A stretch of 64,000 nt of DNA from contig NZ_CAJGZJ010000002.1 of assembly GCF_904846225.1 (NCBI RefSeq), positions 62,001-126,000 of the forward strand. The letters run 5' to 3'. Positions 4,197 through 30,900 of this stretch are shown here, one piece after another. Source of the DNA: Psychrobacter immobilis. GTDB taxonomy: Bacteria > Pseudomonadota > Gammaproteobacteria > Pseudomonadales > Moraxellaceae. A program made the translations under genes and the position numbers. The notes beneath the pieces were generated by a model. The model was not told the origin of the DNA and ran no database searches. It worked only from the letters and a program-made list of their open reading frames with translations. The first letter of the stretch is position 1; every line of letters starts with the position of its first letter.

Positions 4197-5993
4197 TTAT
4201 TCGACTTGCAGTACAGCCAAGAAGGCTTCTTGTGGAATCTCCACATTACCCACTTGCTTCATGCGTTTTTTGCCCGCTTTTTGCTTAGACAATAGCTTTT
4301 TCTTGCGCGACACATCGCCACCATAGCATTTAGCCAGTACGTCTTTACGCATGGCTTTGACGGTACTACGGCCGATGATTTGACCACCAATAGCCGCTTG
4401 AATTGCTACATCAAACATCTGACGGGGAATCAGCTCTTTCATTTTACCAACAAGCGCATTACCACGATACCGTGATTGAGTTTCATGCACAATCATTGCT
4501 AAGGCATCGACTTTATCACCATTGATTAGCACATCCACTCTGACCAATTTATCGGCTTGATAACGCTCAAAGTTATAATCCAACGACGCAAATCCACGAG
4601 AAACAGACTTCAGGCGATCAAAGAAATCCATGACGACTTCGCCCATTGGAATATCAAATATCAGCTGTACTTGTCGACCCATAAAGCGCATATCAACCTG
4701 AGCACCTCGACGTTCAATACACAAGGTCATCACATTACCCAAATACTCTTGCGGTACTAGAATTTGACAGCGAGCAATCGGCTCACGAAACTCTTCAATA
4801 TTGTTCGACTCAGGTAAATGTGATGGGTTATCGACATAGATAACCTCACCGTTCTTTTTCTCAATCTCATAAATCACAGAAGGTGCTGTCGTGATCAAAT
4901 CCAAATCGTATTCGCGCTCTAGACGCTCTTGGATAATCTCCATATGGAGCATACCTAAGAAGCCACAGCGAAAACCAAAGCCTAATGCATCAGAAGTATC
5001 AGGCTCAAAAAACAGCGAAGCATCATTAATTTGCAGCTTTTGCAAGGCTTCACGGAATTTTTCGAAATCTGTAGACTCTACTGGGAACATACCAGCATAT
5101 ACTTGCGGCGTGATTTGCTTAAAACCAGGAATACGGTCAACATCAGGCGTTTTAGAATGGGTAATCGTATCACCAACTGGCGCGCCAGCAATGTCTTTGA
5201 TACCAGCAATAATAAAACCGACTTCCCCTGCCTCTAAGATACCGGTATCTAATGGCTTCGGTGTAAATACACCAATAGAGCTAACGGGATGTGCTTCTTT
5301 GGTCGATTTGATATAAATCTTATCGCCTTTTTTTACGGTGCCTTGGCGCACACGTACCAAAGAAACCACACCCAAATAACTATCAAACCATGAATCAATG
5401 ATTAACGCTTGTAGTGGCGCTTCACGGTCGCCAGTTGGTGCTGGAATAAATTCGACCAACGCTTCTAACAGCTTGTCGACGCCCAAACCGGACTTGGCAG
5501 ATACTCGTGGTGCATCAACAGCGTCAATCCCAATAATATCTTCAATTTCTTGAATAACGCGTTCAGGCTCAACTTGTGGCAAATCAATTTTATTAAGTAC
5601 CGCCATCACCTCTAAACCCTGATCAACAGCGGTATAGCAGTTGGCTACAGACTGAGCCTCTACCCCTTGCGCAGCATCGACGACCAATAGCGCGCCTTCA
5701 CAAGCGGCCAATGAGCGCGACACTTCATAAGAGAAATCAACGTGTCCTGGGGTATCAATAAAATTAAGCTGGTAACGCTCACCATTAGGATGGTCATAAA
5801 ACAACGTGACCGATTGCGCTTTAATAGTGATACCACGCTCGCGCTCAATATCCATGGAGTCAAGTACTTGCGCCTGCATTTCACGATCTTGCAGGGCGCC
5901 GCACATTTGAATAAAACGATCAGCAAGCGTCGACTTGCCATGATCAATGTGGGCAATGATTGAAAAGTTACGAATATTGGCTAATGCAGTCAC
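4197..5993 (-). CDS. lepA: Elongation factor 4 (LepA), ribosome-associated GTPase
   Basis: LepA/EF4 is a translational GTPase related to EF-G that acts on the ribosome under stress or during initiation. The N-terminal G domain has [13 protein letters not shown], the switch II box [15 protein letters not shown] and NKIDLP. The LepA-specific C-terminal domain, rich in basic residues ([20 protein letters not shown]), is complete. The 598-residue length is normal. The gene appears to head a minus-strand operon lepA-lepB-DUF4845-rnc-era-recO, since the next gene upstream belongs to the capsule locus and is separated by 352 bp. Confidence 0.98.
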
Positions 5994-6345
5994 AAAGCGC
6001 CTACTAAATTAAGGGTGATAGAATAATAAAATAAAAAGAATAAATAATGCTGATAAGCGCAATAGATAAGATCATCGTCTTTAAATAAAGAGGAGATAAT
6101 CAGAATAAGCTTGTTCGTTAATAGTGCTATTTCTAATCACTGCTCAGGACACGAACTCTTATGCGCAGGCATGAAAGAGTATTCTAGCAGTTTTCCACTA
6201 CAAAGTAAGGCGATTTTATTAGCAGAGGCGTGATTTACAGGTGAAGTTACGAGCAGAAAACGCTAAAGACAGAAAGTCAGGTGCTTAGCAAAGCGCTGTT
6301 ACCTTCTAGCAGGTTAATAAACAACCACCATTCAAGGCAAATAAA
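5994..6345. other. Intergenic region between lepA and kpsS
   Basis: This 352 bp gap lies downstream of kpsS and upstream of lepA, both on the minus strand. It must hold the lepA promoter and the end of the capsule transcript. I see no strong hairpin with a T-tract, no open frame resembling a gene and no copy of the repeats found elsewhere in the window. Confidence 0.5.
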
Positions 6346-7590
6346 CTATTGAGGTGTATCTTTTTCGGAGAGATCACTCTTTATAGAATTGCTTCCAACT
6401 GGATACAGATATTTATGCATCCATGGCGACTTACCATAAAAAGCACCATTGATTTGAGTTTGCTCTATCAAATACTCACGGAATCGCAGATAAAACTCAT
6501 TGTCTGGATTTTTAGGTTGCTGCCAAAACTCATCAAGCGGTTTTTGATCGATAAGCTGAGGCGTATTGTAAATAGCACGGCCCATAACCTTGGTCGGTTT
6601 TTTGTGATATACCGACTGCAGACCTGTTGTACTATTAATTGTCACCATGCCGATACTATGCTTCATTAAGGTTGGCAGATGCATGTCACAACCATAAAAA
6701 ACCCGATGTGCCACTTGATAACGCACAGCCAAGCTCGCAACCAACTCACGGTAATCTCGATGACCTCGATCTAACGGATGGTGTTTAAATACTAATAGCT
6801 GTTGCTGATTGGCACAATCTGCAAAACTTGCAATAGACTCATCAATGAACTGCACCACGTCACGGTAATCACTATGATGCGTAATCTGTGAGTCATTGTG
6901 CACTTGTAAGCTAATCAAAAAGTAATTATGACTGTCTTGATTTGTCAGCCTGCTTTGCAATTGCTTATCAGGTAAGTATCCTTTGAGTTTACGCCATGGT
7001 GCTTTGAGCCACGCTATGGCCTCTTGCCATGCAGTCATACCGCGATAATGCGAGTAGTGCGGATAGCGACTTTTATATACCCAAGCGATAATGTAGTAGA
7101 CGATAGCAGCAATACTCAAACGATAAAAACGATTGTGGGTATATATCGGATGGTCATTGGCTTTTTTGAGCGCTTTAATATCAGCCGTATTCAAGCGTGA
7201 GTAGCCATTGATGCCGTACTCTTGCAAGGTAATATAATCAGGACGCAAATACCCTTCTTCAAATACAAAAAAAGAGATACCCAATCGATCACTAGTACAG
7301 GCAGCTTGCGTATGATGCGGACGACAATCACCAAAGCATACAATAGCATCAATACTATTTTTTTCGATAAAATCCTGCAACCAAGAAGAAAAGCGCGCTA
7401 AGGTGTCGGTATATTCATAAGTATTATCATGATGATAAAAAAACGCATCGCCAGCATTAAAATTAACTTTACTAACCTTAATATCTTGAGATTGCAAAAA
7501 TGTCGAAAAACGGTTAAAAAATCCGCCCATCTTCCCTTGTAGCAGCAAGACATGTCCATGAGTAAGCAAGTGAGACATCGAAACTGCCAT
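6346..7590 (-). CDS. kpsS: Capsule polysaccharide Kdo transferase KpsS-like
   Basis: KpsS-family enzymes add the first beta-Kdo to phosphatidylglycerol, starting the poly-Kdo linker on which group 2 capsules are exported. The 414 residues show family landmarks: HVLLLQGKMGGFF at the N-terminus, FFVFEEGYLRPDYITLQEYG, FKHHPLDRGHRDY and NSTTGLQSVYHKKPT. They lie in the expected order for the inverting Kdo glycosyltransferase fold. Length is close to E. coli KpsS. It follows kpsC by 144 bp on the same strand and is the last gene of the capsule export set. Start choice is uncertain: Met1 and Met5 both lack a clear ribosome binding site. Confidence 0.9.
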   Translation of the reverse strand: MAVSMSHLLTHGHVLLLQGKMGGFFNRFSTFLQSQDIKVSKVNFNAGDAFFYHHDNTYEYTDTLARFSSWLQDFIEKNSIDAIVCFGDCRPHHTQAACTSDRLGISFFVFEEGYLRPDYITLQEYGINGYSRLNTADIKALKKANDHPIYTHNRFYRLSIAAIVYYIIAWVYKSRYPHYSHYRGMTAWQEAIAWLKAPWRKLKGYLPDKQLQSRLTNQDSHNYFLISLQVHNDSQITHHSDYRDVVQFIDESIASFADCANQQQLLVFKHHPLDRGHRDYRELVASLAVRYQVAHRVFYGCDMHLPTLMKHSIGMVTINSTTGLQSVYHKKPTKVMGRAIYNTPQLIDQKPLDEFWQQPKNPDNEFYLRFREYLIEQTQINGAFYGKSPWMHKYLYPVGSNSIKSDLSEKDTPQ

Positions 7591-7734: not shown

Positions 7735-10287
7735 CTAAAAGGATATGTTGCGTAGGCGCTGTTGCCATTTATGACGTTGTTGCATGAAACGCGTGGCAGC
7801 TCGGCGTTTAAGCTGGGTGGGTTTGAAATTGGCAGAAAAATTTGATAGAGACAGTATTAAGGGATTGACTGAACTATCTACTTCACTAGATATGCCAGCT
7901 TGTGATGATCCGCTTTGGTTATTTGCGAGTGGATATAAATAATCAATGACTTGCTCTACTTGCGCCAGCCCATAACCATTAGGTAGACGATATAGTGGAT
8001 AACTTATGAGTACACAGTATAGCAATTGCTCAAGCGTTAGTGCAGTGTCTCGTTTACGCCGCTTTAAATATTCAGTTTTTGGCGCTAGCGTCGCGTCGAT
8101 ATCGGTCGTTAAGCCCCAACCTGCATAAAAGGGCAAACCATAACAGCTCACTTTCAGGCCACGGAGCAATGCCTCAAATCCTGTCAATGAGCTGATAGTA
8201 TGTATCTCATCGACGCATTCTAAACAATCAGGCATCGCCGTATCATAAGCGACCGCTTGGACTTGACGCAAATAGGTTTCCGCTACCTTGCCTGCTCGCA
8301 GTCCTGCTTCCACATCAGGATGCGGCTTATAAATCAGATAAGCATCAGGATTTTCTTGGCATACACGCTCGATCAAATCGCTATTGGTTTTAATGTCCGA
8401 GCCGCAATACTGCACCGATAAATCATCTTCTACTTGACCGATAATGAGAATACGAGATTTCCCAGAACGCTTGGCATCCTGCATCCAAGCGTTCTGTTGA
8501 TCATCAGCGCTGCCTGCATTCATGCCAACATTGTACTTACTCACGCGCTGAGTCAGCAGTTTGTCTTGAAGTTTTTGTACGCGCACGCTTTGCTTTGGAC
8601 TCAACACCTTGCAGTGACGCAATAACGTTTCTAAATCTGACGGCTGGGTCGCATCATAATAGATGCCCTGCTGATCTATCACCACCGACAATGGTGCTAG
8701 TAACGTAGCGCCCAAACCATTTGAGCGAATAAATCCATCTTCCATACAATAAATAGTAGGCTGATTAATAAGCTTATTTTGTCGTTTTTTTCGTAATTGC
8801 TGGCGTTTGGCTAAACCCCAAACAAGCAAAGGTTGCTGATAATTGACGCGAATATGGTCTGGATGCAGCATATTTTTTAGACGAGGTTTTGGTTTGATAA
8901 ATAACGTCGTACGTGGCAAATCGACAAAAGCTTTAACAAAAGGTAGCTTCCAACGGCTAAACTCATATACCGTCAAGTGACTTTCAAGGCGCGCTTGCCA
9001 GTGACGATTGGTCACCAACCATTCAATCGCTGTATCAATATCGCAAGCTTGTCTCGTCGCTGGATCGACATAGCGACTATACTCAATATAAGCGCTATAG
9101 AATAACGTCTCTAACGTCGTATTCACTTTATTGACAGATGATAGGGGAAATAAGGCTCGGTTTGGTACTGTTCCCTTTGCTCGCAGTGTTTTTGTAAAAG
9201 CGTGACGGCGTTTTTGGACCGTTTTTAGCAAACGTTTTGGTGCCTCGCTGTCATCAGTAAGACCCCAGCCACTATACCAATTGACCCCAAAGCAATGCAC
9301 GGTTTTACCAAGCATCAATGCTTCAAAACCCATATGTGAGCTGACCGTATAAACGTGATCTACTTGCGCGAGTAACTCTATAGGATTGAGTGCTTGATTT
9401 AAGAGTCGGACGTTTTTGGGTAGCTTTAGATTGGTTAAGTAACCTGATTTTGCTGCAGGATGAGCCTTGACCCAAATATGAGCGTTGGGATGGTTGCGAC
9501 AAGCGGCTTTTAGCATCCGTTTAAACTGACGTTTGTCAGCGCCAGCACCTTCAATAGACGCATCACCAGCCACTTGGTCAATTAATAGCACGTGTGACTT
9601 TAGCGGGTTTTTTATTGTGCCAGCCTTCTCTTCATCCACCCATTTATCTAATGATGGACACGCGATTACTGCGTTATACTTGCTGAGTCTTTCATCACAG
9701 ATACGTGCTATCAATTGCTTGGCGTGTTTGTTATCTAGTGCACGTGTTTCAGATTTGGCATCGCTCTTAGCACGCTCAATGATTAATTGCTCAAGGCGTG
9801 AGCTGTGCGTCAAGTCAAAATAAATACCAATGTCATCAACAATCACGCTCAGCCCGTGGCGGCTACTAATACCTGAATCTAATGAACGCAAAAAGCCATC
9901 TTCGATACTCAAAGTCGCAAGATTTTGCTTTGTAGCGACCTTATTAGCTCGTTGATAGCTTTTTTTATGACCCCAACCGATAAAAGCATCGGGACGCGGC
10001 TTCAGTGAATGCGTTATTTGGTGCTGTATAAATGTCGGTAATGGCAATAAAGAAAGTAGCGCTGGTTTATTTTCAGTCAAGCCGTGCTGTAGATTTGACC
10101 ACGGATACCAGCGCTGGATATCCGCCTGCAACACTTGGGATAACAGCACGTTATTACGACGCATGCCTTTTCCAATAACGGCTAAATGCTGCGGTATTTG
10201 GTTGTTGGCTGATGGTAAAAATAGTGCATTATCAGAGGTAGATGCAATGGGTGCTTTGTCTTTGTCTGCGACGCTTTTTGCCATCAT
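7735..10287 (-). CDS. kpsC: Capsule polysaccharide Kdo transferase KpsC-like, two glycosyltransferase modules
   Basis: KpsC extends the poly-Kdo linker of group 2 capsules with two beta-Kdo transferase modules of different linkage specificity. The 850-residue protein repeats itself. Module 1 has SIEDGFLRSLDSG, VKAHPAAKSG and VSSHMGFEALMLGK. Module 2 has YCMEDGFIRSNGLG, YKPHPDVEAG and ISSLTGFEALLRG. Each ends with a YSGWGLTDD/YAGWGLTTD box. It is longer than E. coli KpsC (about 675 residues), mostly from N- and C-terminal extensions. An AAGGT box lies just upstream of the ATG at 10287, supporting this start. It lies 54 bp downstream of kpsD and upstream of kpsS. Confidence 0.92.
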   Translation of the reverse strand: MMAKSVADKDKAPIASTSDNALFLPSANNQIPQHLAVIGKGMRRNNVLLSQVLQADIQRWYPWSNLQHGLTENKPALLSLLPLPTFIQHQITHSLKPRPDAFIGWGHKKSYQRANKVATKQNLATLSIEDGFLRSLDSGISSRHGLSVIVDDIGIYFDLTHSSRLEQLIIERAKSDAKSETRALDNKHAKQLIARICDERLSKYNAVIACPSLDKWVDEEKAGTIKNPLKSHVLLIDQVAGDASIEGAGADKRQFKRMLKAACRNHPNAHIWVKAHPAAKSGYLTNLKLPKNVRLLNQALNPIELLAQVDHVYTVSSHMGFEALMLGKTVHCFGVNWYSGWGLTDDSEAPKRLLKTVQKRRHAFTKTLRAKGTVPNRALFPLSSVNKVNTTLETLFYSAYIEYSRYVDPATRQACDIDTAIEWLVTNRHWQARLESHLTVYEFSRWKLPFVKAFVDLPRTTLFIKPKPRLKNMLHPDHIRVNYQQPLLVWGLAKRQQLRKKRQNKLINQPTIYCMEDGFIRSNGLGATLLAPLSVVIDQQGIYYDATQPSDLETLLRHCKVLSPKQSVRVQKLQDKLLTQRVSKYNVGMNAGSADDQQNAWMQDAKRSGKSRILIIGQVEDDLSVQYCGSDIKTNSDLIERVCQENPDAYLIYKPHPDVEAGLRAGKVAETYLRQVQAVAYDTAMPDCLECVDEIHTISSLTGFEALLRGLKVSCYGLPFYAGWGLTTDIDATLAPKTEYLKRRKRDTALTLEQLLYCVLISYPLYRLPNGYGLAQVEQVIDYLYPLANNQSGSSQAGISSEVDSSVNPLILSLSNFSANFKPTQLKRRAATRFMQQRHKWQQRLRNISF

Positions 10288-22734: not shown

Positions 22735-25194
22735 ATGTCTGCCGATACCATTGCTCGCACCGCCTTTAAACAAGGCACCAAACCACTTTACGATTATGAC
22801 AAACATTGGGCGAGCTGCTACGAGCCTGCGCCTTATCTGCCGATGAGCCGCAAAGAAATGGACGATTTGGGCTGGGATGCCTGTGATGTCATCATCATTT
22901 CAGGCGATGCGTATGTCGATCATCCAAGTTTTGGTATGGCGATTATCGGACGCTTGCTAGAGTCGCAGGGGTTTCGCGTTGGCATCATTGCCCAGCCAGA
23001 TTGGAAGAGCAAAGACGCCTTTATGGAACTGGGTAAACCTGTTTATGCATATGGCGTGACAGCGGGCAACATGGACAGCATGATTAACCGTTACACCGCA
23101 GATCGCAAAATCCGTAGTGATGACGCGTACTCGCCCGGTAATGTCGCCAACAAACGTCCTGACCGCGCGGCTATCGTCTATAGCCAGCGCTGCCGTGAAG
23201 CGTATCCTGATGTGCCGATTATCTTGGGCGGTATCGAAGGCAGTTTACGCCGTATCGCTCATTATGATTACTGGTCGGATAAAGTCCGTCGCAGTATTTT
23301 GCTTGATGCCCGTGCCGATGTCTTATTGTATGGTAATGCTGAACGTGCCATTGTCGATGTGGTACATGGTTTATCAAAAGGCTATAGCTTTGAGCAAATG
23401 AGCAAGTTGCGCGGTACGTCGTATCTATTGACCCCAACGCGTCGCCATTGGCAACAAGATATGACCGAGGTCGCCAGTAACGATGTCGATACCGTTGGTC
23501 GTGTTGATCCGATTATCAATCCTTATGTGATGACCGAAGACGTCGATCAATGCTCCATTGAACAAGACAAACCTACCGATTCGCCAGTTGGACAAGCGAT
23601 GATGTCGCAATCATCAATGTCATCTAAGTATCAAGGTTTCGTTTCTGAGCCAGTAAGTAACAAAATTCTCAATGCTCATCAAGTCGACGAAGAAACGCAA
23701 GTCGTACAAATGCGCGGCTTTGACAAGCCAATGACTGCCCGTAAACATAAGCTAAAAATGCCGCCACGTGAGCAAACGGTGATTCGCTTGCCTGATTATG
23801 AGCACGTTAAATCTGATCCGGTGCTTTATGCTCATGCCAGCCGTATCTTGCATCTTGAGACCAATCCGGGTAATGCTCGTGCGCTGGTACAACGTCATAG
23901 CAGCGGTGCTGGTAATTCATATACCTCCATCGATGTTTGGCTCAATCCGCCACCGATTCCGCTCTCAACTGAAGAGATGGATTATGTGTTTGATTTGCCG
24001 TACGCACGTCTGCCGCATCCAAGCTATGGCGATGCGCGTATTCCTGCTTATGACATGATTAAATTTTCTGTCAATATTATGCGTGGCTGTTTTGGTGGTT
24101 GTACTTTTTGCTCAATCACTGAGCACGAAGGACGTATTATTCAAAGCCGCTCAGAAGATTCAATCTTGCGCGAAGTTGAAGCGATTCGTGATACCGCGCC
24201 CAACTTTACTGGCGTGATTTCTGATCTTGGTGGCCCCACGGCAAACATGTACCGTCTCAGCTGCAAAGACGACACCATCGAAAAGAACTGCCGCAAGCCC
24301 TCTTGCGTCTATCCTGATGTCTGTGAAAACCTAATCACCGATCACAGCAATTTAACCAAATTATACCGTAAAGCTCGTGATATCAAAGGCGTGAAAAAAA
24401 TCCTGATCGCGTCAGGATTGCGTTATGATTTGGCGGTCAAAGATCCTGAATATGTCAAAGAGCTGGTCAGCCATCATGTCGGCGGATATCTAAAAATTGC
24501 GCCTGAGCATTCTGAAGAAAATGTCTTGTCGAAGATGATGAAGCCTGGCATGGGCAGCTATGATAAATTCAAAGCTATGTTTGAGCAGTACAGTCAAGAA
24601 GCAGGCAAAGAGCAATATTTGATTCCTTACTTCATCGCCGCCCATCCGGGCACTAAAGATGAAGACATGATGAACCTTGCGCTTTGGCTAAAAAGTCATG
24701 GCTATCGCGCTGACCAAGTACAAGCGTTTTATCCAAGTCCGATGGCGACAGCGACCACCATGTATCATACGCACAAAGACCCACTACATAAGATTAGCCG
24801 TAGTGAAGGTGATATGGATATCGTCAAGTCTGGTAAGCAGCGTAAATTGCACAAAGCGTTCCTCCGTTATCACGATCCAAAAAACTGGGTCATGCTGCGT
24901 AAAGCGCTGCAAGATATGGGACGCAGTGATTTGATTGGCAAAAACCGTGGCTGCTTGATTCCGCCATTCAATGCCAGTTTGGAAGGTCGCGATGCTGCGC
25001 AAGACAGCTATCAGTCAGCGCGCAAAAAGAATAGTCGCCTTGGTAATGACTCGGTGAAGCGTAGCCATAGCTCAGCGGCAAACAGCTCGTCAACCAATAG
25101 CCCTGTTGGCAAAAACTCTACCAGCAAAAAACGCGTGAGTAAAGGCAATTTCCAAACTCAGCACACAGGTCTGCCACCGCGTAAAACGAAATAG
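22735..25194 (+). CDS. ygiQ: YgiQ family radical SAM protein
   Basis: A radical S-adenosylmethionine enzyme of the YgiQ family, whose substrate is still unknown. The 4Fe-4S cluster motif CFGGCTFC is at Cys452, Cys456 and Cys459. An N-terminal YgiQ-specific domain precedes it, with [16 protein letters not shown] and [20 protein letters not shown]. The DUF3362 C-terminal region ends in a basic Ser/Asn-rich tail ([13 protein letters not shown]). At 819 residues it is longer than E. coli YgiQ (about 740), because of an insertion around residues 235-360 and the tail. It is monocistronic, with its own terminator. Confidence 0.95.
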
Positions 25195-26189: not shown

Positions 26190-26732
26190 ATGGTTAAGCG
26201 CGTTATAAGTATGATCATCATCGCAACTGTCAGTATGTGCGTGCTGCCTGCATGCGACAACAGTGCTGAAACTACCAGCCAAGCTTCTGAACCAGCGGTA
26301 ACGACAGCGAAGCCTTCAGTACAAATACCAACGCCAAATACTATCGATTGGTCATTGGTCGCCAGTGGTGAAACACCTGCTAACCTCGCCAATTATCAAT
26401 ATCCGTTTGCGCTCGATAGTCAAAATGTAAAAGATTATGCGACATATTTCGATGTGGATAATGCCACTGCTCAGCATAATCTAACGGTGAGTACAGCAAG
26501 TAATGAGGCGCTATCCAAAGTCTTGGATCAGCTGAGCGACACCTATGTCTCACACGAGATAACCGATGGCAATGATATGAAACTTGTCATTCATACCACG
26601 CCCGATGTCGCTGCCAGCAGCTATGATTATGTGCTGTCTGATGACTTTGCTAAGGGATTGGTATTGCCTATTGAGATCAAACCTGATGGTAAGAAAGGTG
26701 ATGTGAAGACGCATGGAGAAATGGCGGAGTAA
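26190..26732 (+). CDS. Lipoprotein of unknown function
   Basis: A 180-residue lipoprotein (signal IIIATVSMCVLPAC, Cys22) followed by a Ser/Thr/Ala-rich linker and a small domain with no motif I recognise. The last 24 codons and the stop are repeated at 27509-27582, downstream of the next gene, with about 86% identity. That marks this gene as one end of a past duplication. The following unknown gene starts 42 bp after its stop. Confidence 0.75.
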   Translation: MVKRVISMIIIATVSMCVLPACDNSAETTSQASEPAVTTAKPSVQIPTPNTIDWSLVASGETPANLANYQYPFALDSQNVKDYATYFDVDNATAQHNLTVSTASNEALSKVLDQLSDTYVSHEITDGNDMKLVIHTTPDVAASSYDYVLSDDFAKGLVLPIEIKPDGKKGDVKTHGEMAE

Positions 26733-26773
26733 GATGGGATATACTCAACTCTTTTATTAAAATGAGATAAAAA

Positions 26774-27466
26774 ATGATATTTGGAAATCCTGGCATTTAT
26801 TATGAAGATGGTACGTATAGTGAATTTGCTATCGTCATTGAGCATCTAACAGCAGAATTTTATAGTCTTAATTTATGCGTTGATATAGAAATGATTCCAC
26901 CGCATCTGGCTTATAACATGAAAAGTATGTTTTTAACACCGCTCAGTGATAGAGCTGTTTTTGAAATCCAATCTCCATCGTTATTTCATCTGAGTAATAA
27001 AGAGTTGATGATTGCTTTAGCAAAACAATACTGTTCTGAGTGGAAAGTGGAAGAGCGAATAAGATTAGGTCTTCAACCGACATTGTACACACCAGCTAAG
27101 ATCGAAGAATACGAAGAGAGCCTATACGATGATAGCTATTTTGATTTTGAAAATTTTGTAGATTATCTTTGGGATATAGAGCCACATGAATATGGAGACA
27201 AGGGGTGGTATCCGTTTATTATAAATCATAAAGAAGAAACCAAACTGGTCATCATTCACATACATCGTAATCCTAAAAATTTAGACGATTATCCTGAAGA
27301 CTTAAAAGAGTATGAAAGGTTTTTCAACGCCGATAAGTCACCTAAACAACCTAAATATTTTGATGAGCACTATTGGTCAGTAAAAGTAATAAAGATGAAG
27401 ACGGCAGAAGTGCTGTCGGTTGTAGATAAAGCCTATGAGTATTTATTTGGTGATAATGTAGACTGA
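26774..27466 (+). CDS. Acidic protein of unknown function in an accessory islet
   Basis: A 230-residue soluble protein with no signal peptide or membrane segment. It is rich in Asp, Glu, Tyr and Phe, with an acidic stretch EEYEESLYDDSYFDFENF and a second half carrying IIHIHRNPKNL. I do not recognise a family. The gene is more AT-rich than its neighbours and lies between a lipoprotein gene and a duplicated copy of that gene's tail, which suggests insertion. Small acidic orphan proteins beside duplicated gene tails are often immunity proteins, but no toxin gene is visible here. Confidence 0.65.
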   Translation: MIFGNPGIYYEDGTYSEFAIVIEHLTAEFYSLNLCVDIEMIPPHLAYNMKSMFLTPLSDRAVFEIQSPSLFHLSNKELMIALAKQYCSEWKVEERIRLGLQPTLYTPAKIEEYEESLYDDSYFDFENFVDYLWDIEPHEYGDKGWYPFIINHKEETKLVIIHIHRNPKNLDDYPEDLKEYERFFNADKSPKQPKYFDEHYWSVKVIKMKTAEVLSVVDKAYEYLFGDNVD

Positions 27467-27500
27467 TAAAACGTGCTCTAGGGTGACGCACGTTTTTTCT
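27467..27500 (+). terminator. Terminator after the acidic protein gene
   Basis: AAAACGTGC and GCACGTTTTTTC form a stem around an 11-base loop, starting right after the stop codon and ending in six T residues. Confidence 0.85.
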
Positions 27501-27508
27501 TAATGGCT

Positions 27509-27582
27509 GGTATTACCCATTGAAATCAAACCTGATGGTAAGAAAAGTGATGTGAAGGCGCACAGGGAAATAGTGGAGTAGA
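27509..27582 (+). pseudogene. Duplicated 3' tail of the lipoprotein gene at 26190
   Basis: This 74 bp segment repeats 26660-26733, the last codons of the lipoprotein gene including the stop (TAA there, TAG here), with about ten differences. No start or signal sequence accompanies it. It is a remnant of a second gene copy, or of a recombination that brought in the intervening unknown gene. Confidence 0.85.
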
Positions 27583-27634
27583 ATTTAATATCGTGTGTTT
27601 TTGCGCATACGCTACCAAGAAACTCTAAGTTGCA

Positions 27635-27773
27635 GGGCGCGCCCTTCGCACCAACGTCCAAACCTAAAGAAAATTAAAAGTTCTTATCTATACAAATATC
27701 CAAATGTTTAGTTATTCTTTAAAGAATTCTTTCAATTTAAAGATTCAATTCTTAAGTAGTGCGCGGAGCGCAC
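27635..27773. repeat. GC-rich palindromes in an AT-rich gap
   Basis: GGGCGCGCCC (27635-27644, a perfect palindrome) and GTGCGCGGAGCGCAC (27759-27773, 6-bp arms with a 3-bp centre) stand out in otherwise AT-rich DNA. The second ends 30 bp before the HEPN-like gene and continues as CCTACTTTATTC. They look like scattered intergenic repeats, and either could fold as a hairpin in RNA. The rest of the 27467-27803 gap holds the terminator and gene tail listed separately. Confidence 0.45.
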
Positions 27774-27803
27774 CCTACTTTATTCATTACAATAGGAATA
27801 CAC

Positions 27804-28649
27804 ATGAAAAGTAATAATGAAAAAATAGCTCTTATATCTGAATTTAAGGAAGAATCTTTTAGATTATTAGATATTAGGTTCCTACCTCCTAAAGTTTTAG
27901 TTCCTAGCGACTTAGATAACTACAAGTTTATTTCAAGAGATGTAGAAGAAGTAAATATTAAAAATTTAAAAATACAATTTTTAACTCCAAGTATGGTTGC
28001 CCTTCAGATTAATATAGCTAACGAATCAATTAGGAATATTAAAAAACTAAAAGACAGGATAAAAATAATTCCTTCCGAACAGAAAAAAGAAGATAGAGAG
28101 CTTGGTGAGAAAATGATAGGTCATACTTTGGAAGTATATGAATTTATCGAGCAAGCTCAAAAGTCTATTATATTCAGTTTTACTGCTTTAGAGACTTTCG
28201 TAAACTTATCTATACCAAAAGATTTTATTTGGGAAAAAACCACTACAAGAAAAAAAGAGATTTATAACAAAGAGCAAATTGAAAGATATATTCCGTGGAA
28301 AGAAAAAATAAATCTGGTTATTACTGATATATACAAATTGCCAGAAATCAAGCAAACTAAGTTTTGGTCAAGCTTAATGGAGCTACTAGAAATAAGAAAT
28401 AGGTTGATTCATATCAAAAGTTCAGACGACACTGAAGTCTTGAGTGATATTTTAAATAAAGATATAATTAGAATATGCTTTTCTAGTCAAGAATACATAA
28501 ACTATATATCTGAAAATGTTACTGAAAATGAACATATAAAAACTGTAGATATTGAAAAATTTCCTATTATTTCAGATAGTAGAAAGGTTCGTTTAATTCA
28601 AAAGGCAGGCGATATACAGCCTGTCTATATTCCAGAAGAGTTTAGATAG
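27804..28649 (+). CDS. AT-rich orphan protein with HEPN-like RX4H motif
   Basis: A 281-residue soluble protein, Lys/Ile/Glu-rich, of lower GC than its neighbours. The part around residues 110-220 looks helical and contains SIIFSFTALETFVNLSIP and, at residues 198-203, RNRLIH. The second fits the R-N-x3-H (RX4H) active-site motif of HEPN domains, many of which are RNases of toxins or defence systems. The SFTALE.FVN pattern also occurs in Apea-like HEPN proteins. The ATG at 27804 is preceded by AGGA with good spacing; an upstream in-frame ATG at 27759 lies in a palindrome and is unlikely. No partner gene (MNT nucleotidyltransferase or antitoxin) is adjacent. Confidence 0.65.
   Translation: MKSNNEKIALISEFKEESFRLLDIRFLPPKVLVPSDLDNYKFISRDVEEVNIKNLKIQFLTPSMVALQINIANESIRNIKKLKDRIKIIPSEQKKEDRELGEKMIGHTLEVYEFIEQAQKSIIFSFTALETFVNLSIPKDFIWEKTTTRKKEIYNKEQIERYIPWKEKINLVITDIYKLPEIKQTKFWSSLMELLEIRNRLIHIKSSDDTEVLSDILNKDIIRICFSSQEYINYISENVTENEHIKTVDIEKFPIISDSRKVRLIQKAGDIQPVYIPEEFR

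Positions 28650-28755: not shown

Positions 28756-30900
<2,145 letters not shown>

Follow-up and report, generated by a model that had tools for sequence, protein, structure and literature searches.

The window analysed here, 64,000 nucleotides of Psychrobacter immobilis DNA, carries an intact gene for a protein of 281 residues, which starts with an ATG at 27804 and ends with a stop codon at 28647-28649 (Table 1). Six bases 5' of this ATG lies AGGA (27794-27797), the ribosome binding site attributed to the gene in a preliminary description of the DNA. The frame is open further upstream, to a GTG at 27759, and close homologues start near the ATG. The low GC content pointed out in the same description was borne out as well, with 0.278 for the gene versus 0.436 for the window and 0.49 for ligA; a value as low was found in one of 632 sliding windows (846 bp, 100-bp step). 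The gene is single copy in its own genome and is under purifying selection. The dN/dS ratio was 0.116 between the window genome (G000) and a second Psychrobacter genome (G002), at a dS of 0.35, and 0.04-0.12 in the other five pairs from the ligA site, but with dS values above 1. A promoter scan returned 6 candidates against 6.1 expected by chance, and Rfam yielded no match at gathering score between positions 25000 and 31500 of the window, nor in six related loci.

Table 1. Features of the locus, in window coordinates
Feature	Position	Strand	Basis
Lipoprotein-like gene, left border of the variable site	26190..26732	+	
97-bp direct repeat, first copy (3' end of the lipoprotein gene)	26646..26742	+	
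Imm42-like immunity-protein gene, accessory neighbour	26774..27466	+	PF15593 E 8.5e-6, 26.8 bits vs cut-off 27.2
97-bp direct repeat, second copy, far side of the Imm42-like gene	27495..27591	+	78% identical
GC palindrome GTGCGC-GGA-GCGCAC(C), probable REP-type element belonging to the site	27759..27774	+	
Solo HEPN-family gene, 281 aa, PHROG 17113	27804..28649	+	ORF, ribosome binding site; PHROG E 2.1e-18; HEPN-like model; dN/dS 0.12 vs G002 (dS 0.35)
SFTALETFVNLSIP, residues 125-138, end of long helix 99-136	28176..28217	+	invariant E130 and N134; invariant E116 earlier in the same helix
R198-N-R-L-I-H203, RX4H motif, end of helix 188-202	28395..28412	+	invariance in 21/21; DSSP of the model
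ligA (NAD-dependent DNA ligase), right border, 3' end facing the HEPN gene	28756..30879	-	translation; match in 104/105 genus genomes

A variable gene site at ligA

The gene had been placed between a lipoprotein gene and ligA. These borders are correct, but the next gene upstream is Imm42-like and not the lipoprotein gene. Relatives of the Imm42-like gene are present at the site in G002, G008 and G060, and no cognate toxin was noticed nearby.

In four Psychrobacter genomes (G000, G002, G101 and G103) the HEPN gene occupies the gap from the lipoprotein gene to ligA, and the proteins from this site group as a single clade with a long branch (support 100/100). Identity to the window protein was 91, 69 and 66% in G002, G103 and G101, respectively, and the corresponding LigA values were 89, 84 and 84%. 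Twenty genomes outscored G002 with the window LigA and none of them has a HEPN gene at the ligA site, G093 carrying a divergent copy elsewhere. We surveyed the site in 84 of the 104 ligA-bearing genomes of the genus, 20 being left out by eye for a more distant ligA or for a ligA near a contig end. The lipoprotein gene was missing from 7 of the 84 stretches, which left 77 with both borders. Over these 77 genomes, the gap measured from 100 to 5075 bp (1178 bp in the window, counted from the repeated lipoprotein end) and its gene content varied widely. This comparison confirmed the variable islet proposed earlier, and known defence genes were present there in other genomes. Ten gap ORFs, picked by eye, were scanned, 5 of which had no PADLOC match. 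They included DRT4 (E 4.6e-187), a BanI-type restriction enzyme (PF24447, E 1.3e-108), a C5 methylase (E 3.8e-91) and DarT (E 7.2e-15), the other six being NACHT-like STAND (marginal PADLOC hits), HNH, DUF5677, TPR and two unknown proteins. By clusters, DRT4-like genes were found at the site in 3 genomes, a restriction enzyme with a methylase in 3, DarT-like genes in 2 and STAND-like genes in 2, one member of each cluster having been scanned. The gap is a variable-gene site with defence genes, and many of its genes are without a known defence role. The open-access literature searched yielded no publication on a defence hotspot in Psychrobacter. The commonest gap content was a cluster of TPR proteins, present in 31 genomes by single linkage, whose one scanned member, an 825-aa protein of G079, matched DUF2971 weakly.

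Two repeated elements accompany the gene. The GC palindrome seen just upstream of it in the preliminary description is indeed there. Palindromes of the form GTGCGC-N2-5-GCGCAC were found in 11 of 11 site stretches (~5.5 kb) with an ORF of the REP-transposase cluster versus 10 of 73 others, the REP-associated transposase of G101 being identified by NF047646. Because of this distribution, we regard the palindrome as probably a REP remnant of the site and not a part of the gene. The REP reading is weakened by the rarity of the palindrome in the window's own genome, with 3 exact matches (control, 0) that amount to one head-to-head pair and this site only, and 7 matches with one mismatch versus 4 in the control. 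An operator or terminator of the HEPN gene was rejected on the distribution at the site, though the palindrome scored terminator-like. As to the 97-bp direct repeat, double copies of the lipoprotein 3' end occurred in 4 of 70 genomes with a match, among them G104, G036 and G101. The repeat is possibly an insertion scar and may be a trace of gene entry into the site.

An RX4H motif invariant across a family

The preliminary description had taken RNRLIH, at residues 198-203, for the RX4H motif of HEPN domains. In the account of PMC3710099, the HEPN superfamily carries an R-X4-6-H motif whose Arg is usually followed by N, D or H; the motif closes the third helix of a four-helix bundle, in which an insert often separates helices 2 and 3. 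Taken alone, the RX4H motif of the window protein is weak evidence. Among the 47 window ORFs of at least 100 aa, R....H was present in 11 and R[NDH]...H in 3, RN..IH being confined to this ORF; 10,000 shuffles of the protein gave R....H in 14.3% and R[NDH]...H in 1.6% of cases. The motif rises above chance because it is invariant in the family: R198, I202 and H203 are identical in 21 of 21 full-length members, window protein included, so the homologues do share the residues on which the first assignment was based. These members span Pseudomonadota, Bacteroidota, Bacillota and Ignavibacteriota. The residue after the motif Arg was N in 18 of them, H in 2 and D in 1. Further invariant positions were D23, P62, E116, E130, N134, I137, E152, E160, K168, W188, K205 and P254, and R25 and P29 were nearly invariant. 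Broken or truncated sequences (L009/L035, a single locus, L014, L021, L022 and L040) had been dropped before counting, as had L041 and L042, which are copies of L036; L014, at 188 aa, stops before the motif. Some of the 21 are close relatives of each other, namely L018, L020 and L003, the four ligA-site members, and L032 and L033.

The conserved acidic residues of helix 99-136 are E116 and E130, and E130 and N134 make an E-x3-N pattern as against the Ex3[KR] typical of helix 2 in HEPN. The end of this helix had been likened to Apea-type HEPN proteins, a resemblance that we did not recover: none of the members in two alignments, of 9 and 13 sequences, matched PF18739 (HEPN_Apea) at E<=1. The PF18739 search itself found nothing in 145 genomes or in 14 controls. 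The Apea comparison is therefore one with the Pfam model only, and remote kinship is possible.

Sequence and profile searches

The protein had also been called an orphan. No curated family claims it, as we obtained no Pfam match above cut-off and no NCBIfam match, but PHROG 17113 does match it (E 2.1e-18) and is its only convincing sequence match. All of 13 family members tested matched this PHROG (best E 2.7e-71), which carries no annotated function. Pattern scans of genome and viral contigs with the window protein returned no relative, nor did tblastn in phages.

Profile searches against HEPN families gave sequence scores at or just above background, all Pfam HEPN hits falling below cut-off. 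Around the motif, single members weakly matched HEPN_Cthe2314 (PF18730, E 0.018) and HEPN_Swt1 (PF18731, E 0.072), and a PF18730 protein bearing RNKIIH gave the best hhalign score. All of these matches were under the curated cut-offs. For PF18730, the best score was 15.5 bits against a cut-off of 27.1, remote kinship being possible. In profile comparison, the Cthe_2314-type member reached E 0.012 and a probability of 3.6%, slightly better than the top-scoring one among 100 hotspot-ORF controls (E 0.057, probability 1.0%), and three Swt1-type members stayed at background (E 0.04-0.7). In some members non-HEPN Pfam models outscored the HEPN ones, that is, MetallophosN (4.9e-4), TRAP_alpha (6.4e-4) and YopX (0.0043), these matches being below cut-off and on terminal parts outside the helical core. 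PADLOC models for Csx1/Csm6 (CARF+HEPN) were matched by 2 of 13 members (best E 4.2e-4) and those for RTasHEPN by 2 of 13 (best 0.002), with no match in the window protein. Sequence searches of the PDB gave no HEPN match.

Predicted fold

A monomer model built by AlphaFold2 on 13 sequences had a mean pLDDT of 64 and a pTM of 0.61, whereas prediction from the single sequence reached a pLDDT of 35 only. In the 13-sequence model, 59 residues were at pLDDT >=90 and 89 at 70-90, residues 1-61 and 242-281 being low; ten-residue means were 85-93 for residues 111-200 and 63-91 around helices 1 and 4. The model has, in order, helices 64-83 and 99-136, a hairpin with short helices at 142-176, helix 188-202, which ends in the motif, and helix 221-239. 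This predicted layout matches the HEPN layout of PMC3710099, with the motif closing helix 3 and residues 142-176 as the insert. A HEPN-like core was thus present in the model, in line with the four-helix bundle anticipated for the protein.

The first three Foldseek matches in the PDB were chains of SO_3166/HepT-type toxins of HEPN-MNT systems, with probabilities of 0.94-0.99 and poor E-values of 0.08-0.15. VIA-align ranked HepT-type proteins or HI0074 at 1-9 (Z 7.6-8.5), followed at 10-13 by YutE, AF_0298, a HEPN-MNT complex and 4nqf; Roquin and Csm6 were among the lower rows. The first unrelated protein stood at rank 14 (Z 7.1, rmsd 6.1), from where unrelated helical proteins such as a megabody, FAT domains and designed bundles appeared at similar Z. 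By the tool's own note, a Z of 8.5 is within the range that helical models reach through a common arrangement. A fold search of BFVD gave no match with E<=0.001. The fold comparisons support the HEPN assignment of the model and stop short of proof because the Foldseek and VIA-align scores are modest. No HEPN description of the PHROG 17113 family was found in the open-access literature searched; the assignment is added here, HEPN RNases as a kind being already known.

A rare family that moves as a bare gene

Relatives were found in 7 of 105 genomes of the genus (own genome included, one copy broken) and, these seven included, in 11 of 299 Moraxellaceae genomes. A search based on the PHROG retrieved 5 of 390 genomes of the order, and a profile of the 9-member alignment 1 of 369 genomes of the class, the window's own. 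The GTDB collection gave 14 loci with relatives, three of them in the same Psychrobacter genomes, and relatives were also found in 2 viral contigs and two plasmids. The family is rare and patchy.

Several members sit on or near mobile elements. The Simplicispira member (L039) lies near an integron integrase (TIGR02249, E 4.8e-142) and between two elements, at 7865-7923 before the gene and at about 8780-8853 after it, which we take by consensus to be attC-like (core-like sites GTTAGCC and GTTAGGC). A member in G207 lies among repeated elements of ~75 bp, beside a partial integron integrase (E 4.6e-36). Overall, attC-like repeats adjoined the gene in 2 of 9 loci searched (L039 and L047), with none there in the other seven. 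The Stutzerimonas member is on a contig with a TspB-like protein and, by eye, a Zot-like ORF, as in filamentous phages, and IMG/VR lists a contig of equal length with an equal match. On comparing 17-kb loci of P. aquimaris and Amphritea atlantica, we found that they match over 882 bp only, at 92% identity. This stretch is the gene with 14 bp before it and 9 bp after it, the flanks being unmatched. What is transferred is therefore the gene by itself, and this speaks against an antitoxin that must be supplied in cis.

Other placements were recorded along the way. The mobilizable 8-kb plasmid pA2584 of Acinetobacter pittii (L003) carries a member at 5542-6372 together with blaOXA-72 and a YafO-type toxin gene. 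In four Acinetobacter-like genomes (L018, L020, L021 and L022, in G598, G615, G534 and G595, respectively) the gene is at one fixed place, by eye after a GlcG/HbpS-like gene near hemL, and is broken in two of them. A long PIN-like protein lies near the HEPN gene in L038 (6218-7444) and L002 (3743-5041) and may be a recurring neighbour; the PIN-like label is annotated in a Priestia plasmid and was given by eye in a Sphingobacteriales genome, where NCBIfam had no match.

Comparison with known systems

Tha (gp03 of the S. aureus prophage 80alpha) is described as a solo HEPN protein of 301 aa, a non-specific RNase that a tail protein switches on and whose protective effect is lost with H270A (PMC11087260). 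Like Tha, a single defence gene, the window protein is a product of similar length (281 aa) with an RNxxxH motif (R265NSIMH270 in Tha). The SO_3166 HEPN (5yep) is among the closest solved folds of both proteins, and Tha is phage-carried, as is one member of PHROG 17113. In contrast, there is no usable sequence similarity, with hhalign at E 0.51 and a probability of 0.1% and a best blastp E of 0.016 over 70 aa, in one member. Membership of the window family in Tha was rejected, the score against Tha-1 being at background in that hhalign comparison. The Tha HEPN domain is C-terminal (184-296), whereas the modelled core of the window protein covers about 62-240, contains a hairpin insert and is followed by a C-terminal tail. 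Trigger and RNase activity are established for Tha, the window protein being known from its sequence and model. By analogy, Tha would be its best functional counterpart.

The best structural matches of the model were of the HepT/SO_3166 type from HEPN-MNT systems (5yep, 6m6u, 6m6w, 7ae8 and 7ae9). HepT has an R-X4-H motif, and the structures 7ae2 and 7ae8 name R102 and H107 in their titles. The window protein is nevertheless twice as long, and identity was 7-11% in the VIA-align rows. No MNT nucleotidyltransferase gene lies beside the window gene, the neighbours being the Imm42-like gene, the lipoprotein-like gene and ligA. The integron-cassette HEPN family of PDB 3jrt shares with our family a conserved RX4-6H and, as in L039, a cassette-borne gene (PMC3710099). 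It differs in that sequence searches with the 13-member alignment, L039 or P0001 did not return 3jrt at E<=10; 3jrt was also absent among the best 50 VIA-align rows, which excludes nothing.

HEPN domains are reported in four of 31 newly validated defence systems, and the one-protein CBS-HEPN system DS-11 depends on the catalytic residues of its HEPN domain (PMC13092281). Among 179 integron cassettes of V. cholerae, at least 16 were active against phages, according to the review PMC12409362, so that a defence role is plausible for the cassette-borne members.

Discussion

With moderate confidence, we propose that the gene encodes a HEPN endoribonuclease and is a single-gene defence of the abortive-infection type. 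We infer the RNase chemistry and the defence role, the latter from location and mobility. A first question is whether the protein is of the HEPN kind. The weak Foldseek E-values, the near-background profile comparison and the unrelated helical proteins reaching similar Z from rank 14 of VIA-align would suit membership of some other helical family, with a structural role for RNxxIH. The best-ranked structures (HepT, HI0074, YutE, AF_0298 and 4nqf) are HEPN-type all the same, and both the position of the motif and the residue after its Arg fit HEPN, which leaves this reading distinctly improbable. We consider it equally improbable that a HEPN-fold protein binds nucleic acid or a nucleotide and does not cut it, for example as a regulatory or immunity-related component of a polymorphic-toxin set. 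An Imm42-like immunity gene does adjoin, and some HEPN families are thought to be inactive (PMC3710099). HEPN domains fused to nucleotidyltransferases have lost the motif wholly or partly and are regarded as binding domains in the same source, unlike the present family with its R and H invariant throughout.

A further possibility was that the gene encodes the toxin of a HEPN toxin-antitoxin pair, kept in check by a partner gene or RNA in the manner of HepT-MntA or AbiF, with a role in mobile-DNA stability or stress dormancy. The closest solved folds are those of HepT-type toxins of HEPN-MNT systems, an accessory Imm42-like gene lies upstream, AbiF is reported as RNA-regulated (PMC12373285), and induction of dormancy by integron HEPN genes is a published hypothesis (PMC3710099). 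However, the Imm42-like gene and the HEPN gene assort independently at the site, the latter occurring without the former in G101 and G103 and the reverse in G008 and G060, and on this ground the Imm42-like gene was rejected as antitoxin. No consistent neighbour was seen by eye in 16 other loci (one a duplicate, some on short contigs), the P. aquimaris-Amphritea match leaves room for 14 and 9 bp beside the gene, the upstream stretch 27452-27776 is unaligned in G002, and Rfam gave nothing at gathering score. We therefore hold a toxin-antitoxin pair to be unlikely, though less so than the two readings above.

Under the defence reading that we prefer, two subunits would pair so that Arg198 and His203 form an RNA-cutting cleft. 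In healthy cells, the enzyme would be held off by its own N-terminal segment (about 1-62), which includes the invariant D23 and the nearly invariant R25 and P29, and/or by its C-terminal segment (about 240-281). Such self-restraint is suggested because no partner gene was seen travelling with the HEPN gene. An incoming phage or phage product would then release the enzyme, which might cut the RNA of the host, of the phage or of both, and growth arrest or death of the infected cell would come before phage release. More tentatively, and as a conjecture that we rate as somewhat less likely than not, PHROG 17113 may be a family, as yet undescribed and spread across phyla, of HEPN RNases that act alone, have no antitoxin and contain their own sensor, made of the DxR...P N-terminal segment and the variable C-terminal tail. 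Its genes may pass as one-gene cassettes between integrons, filamentous phages, plasmids and chromosomal hotspots, every version being adapted to a different phage trigger.

These results give a testable HEPN identity to an unannotated family found in integrons, on a filamentous-phage-like contig, on plasmids and in chromosomes. A solo HEPN protein with no visible antitoxin raises the question of how the RNase is kept silent and of what releases it. For Psychrobacter, the gap between the lipoprotein gene and ligA is a place to seek new defence genes, given the DRT4, restriction-modification and DarT genes that other genomes have in it.
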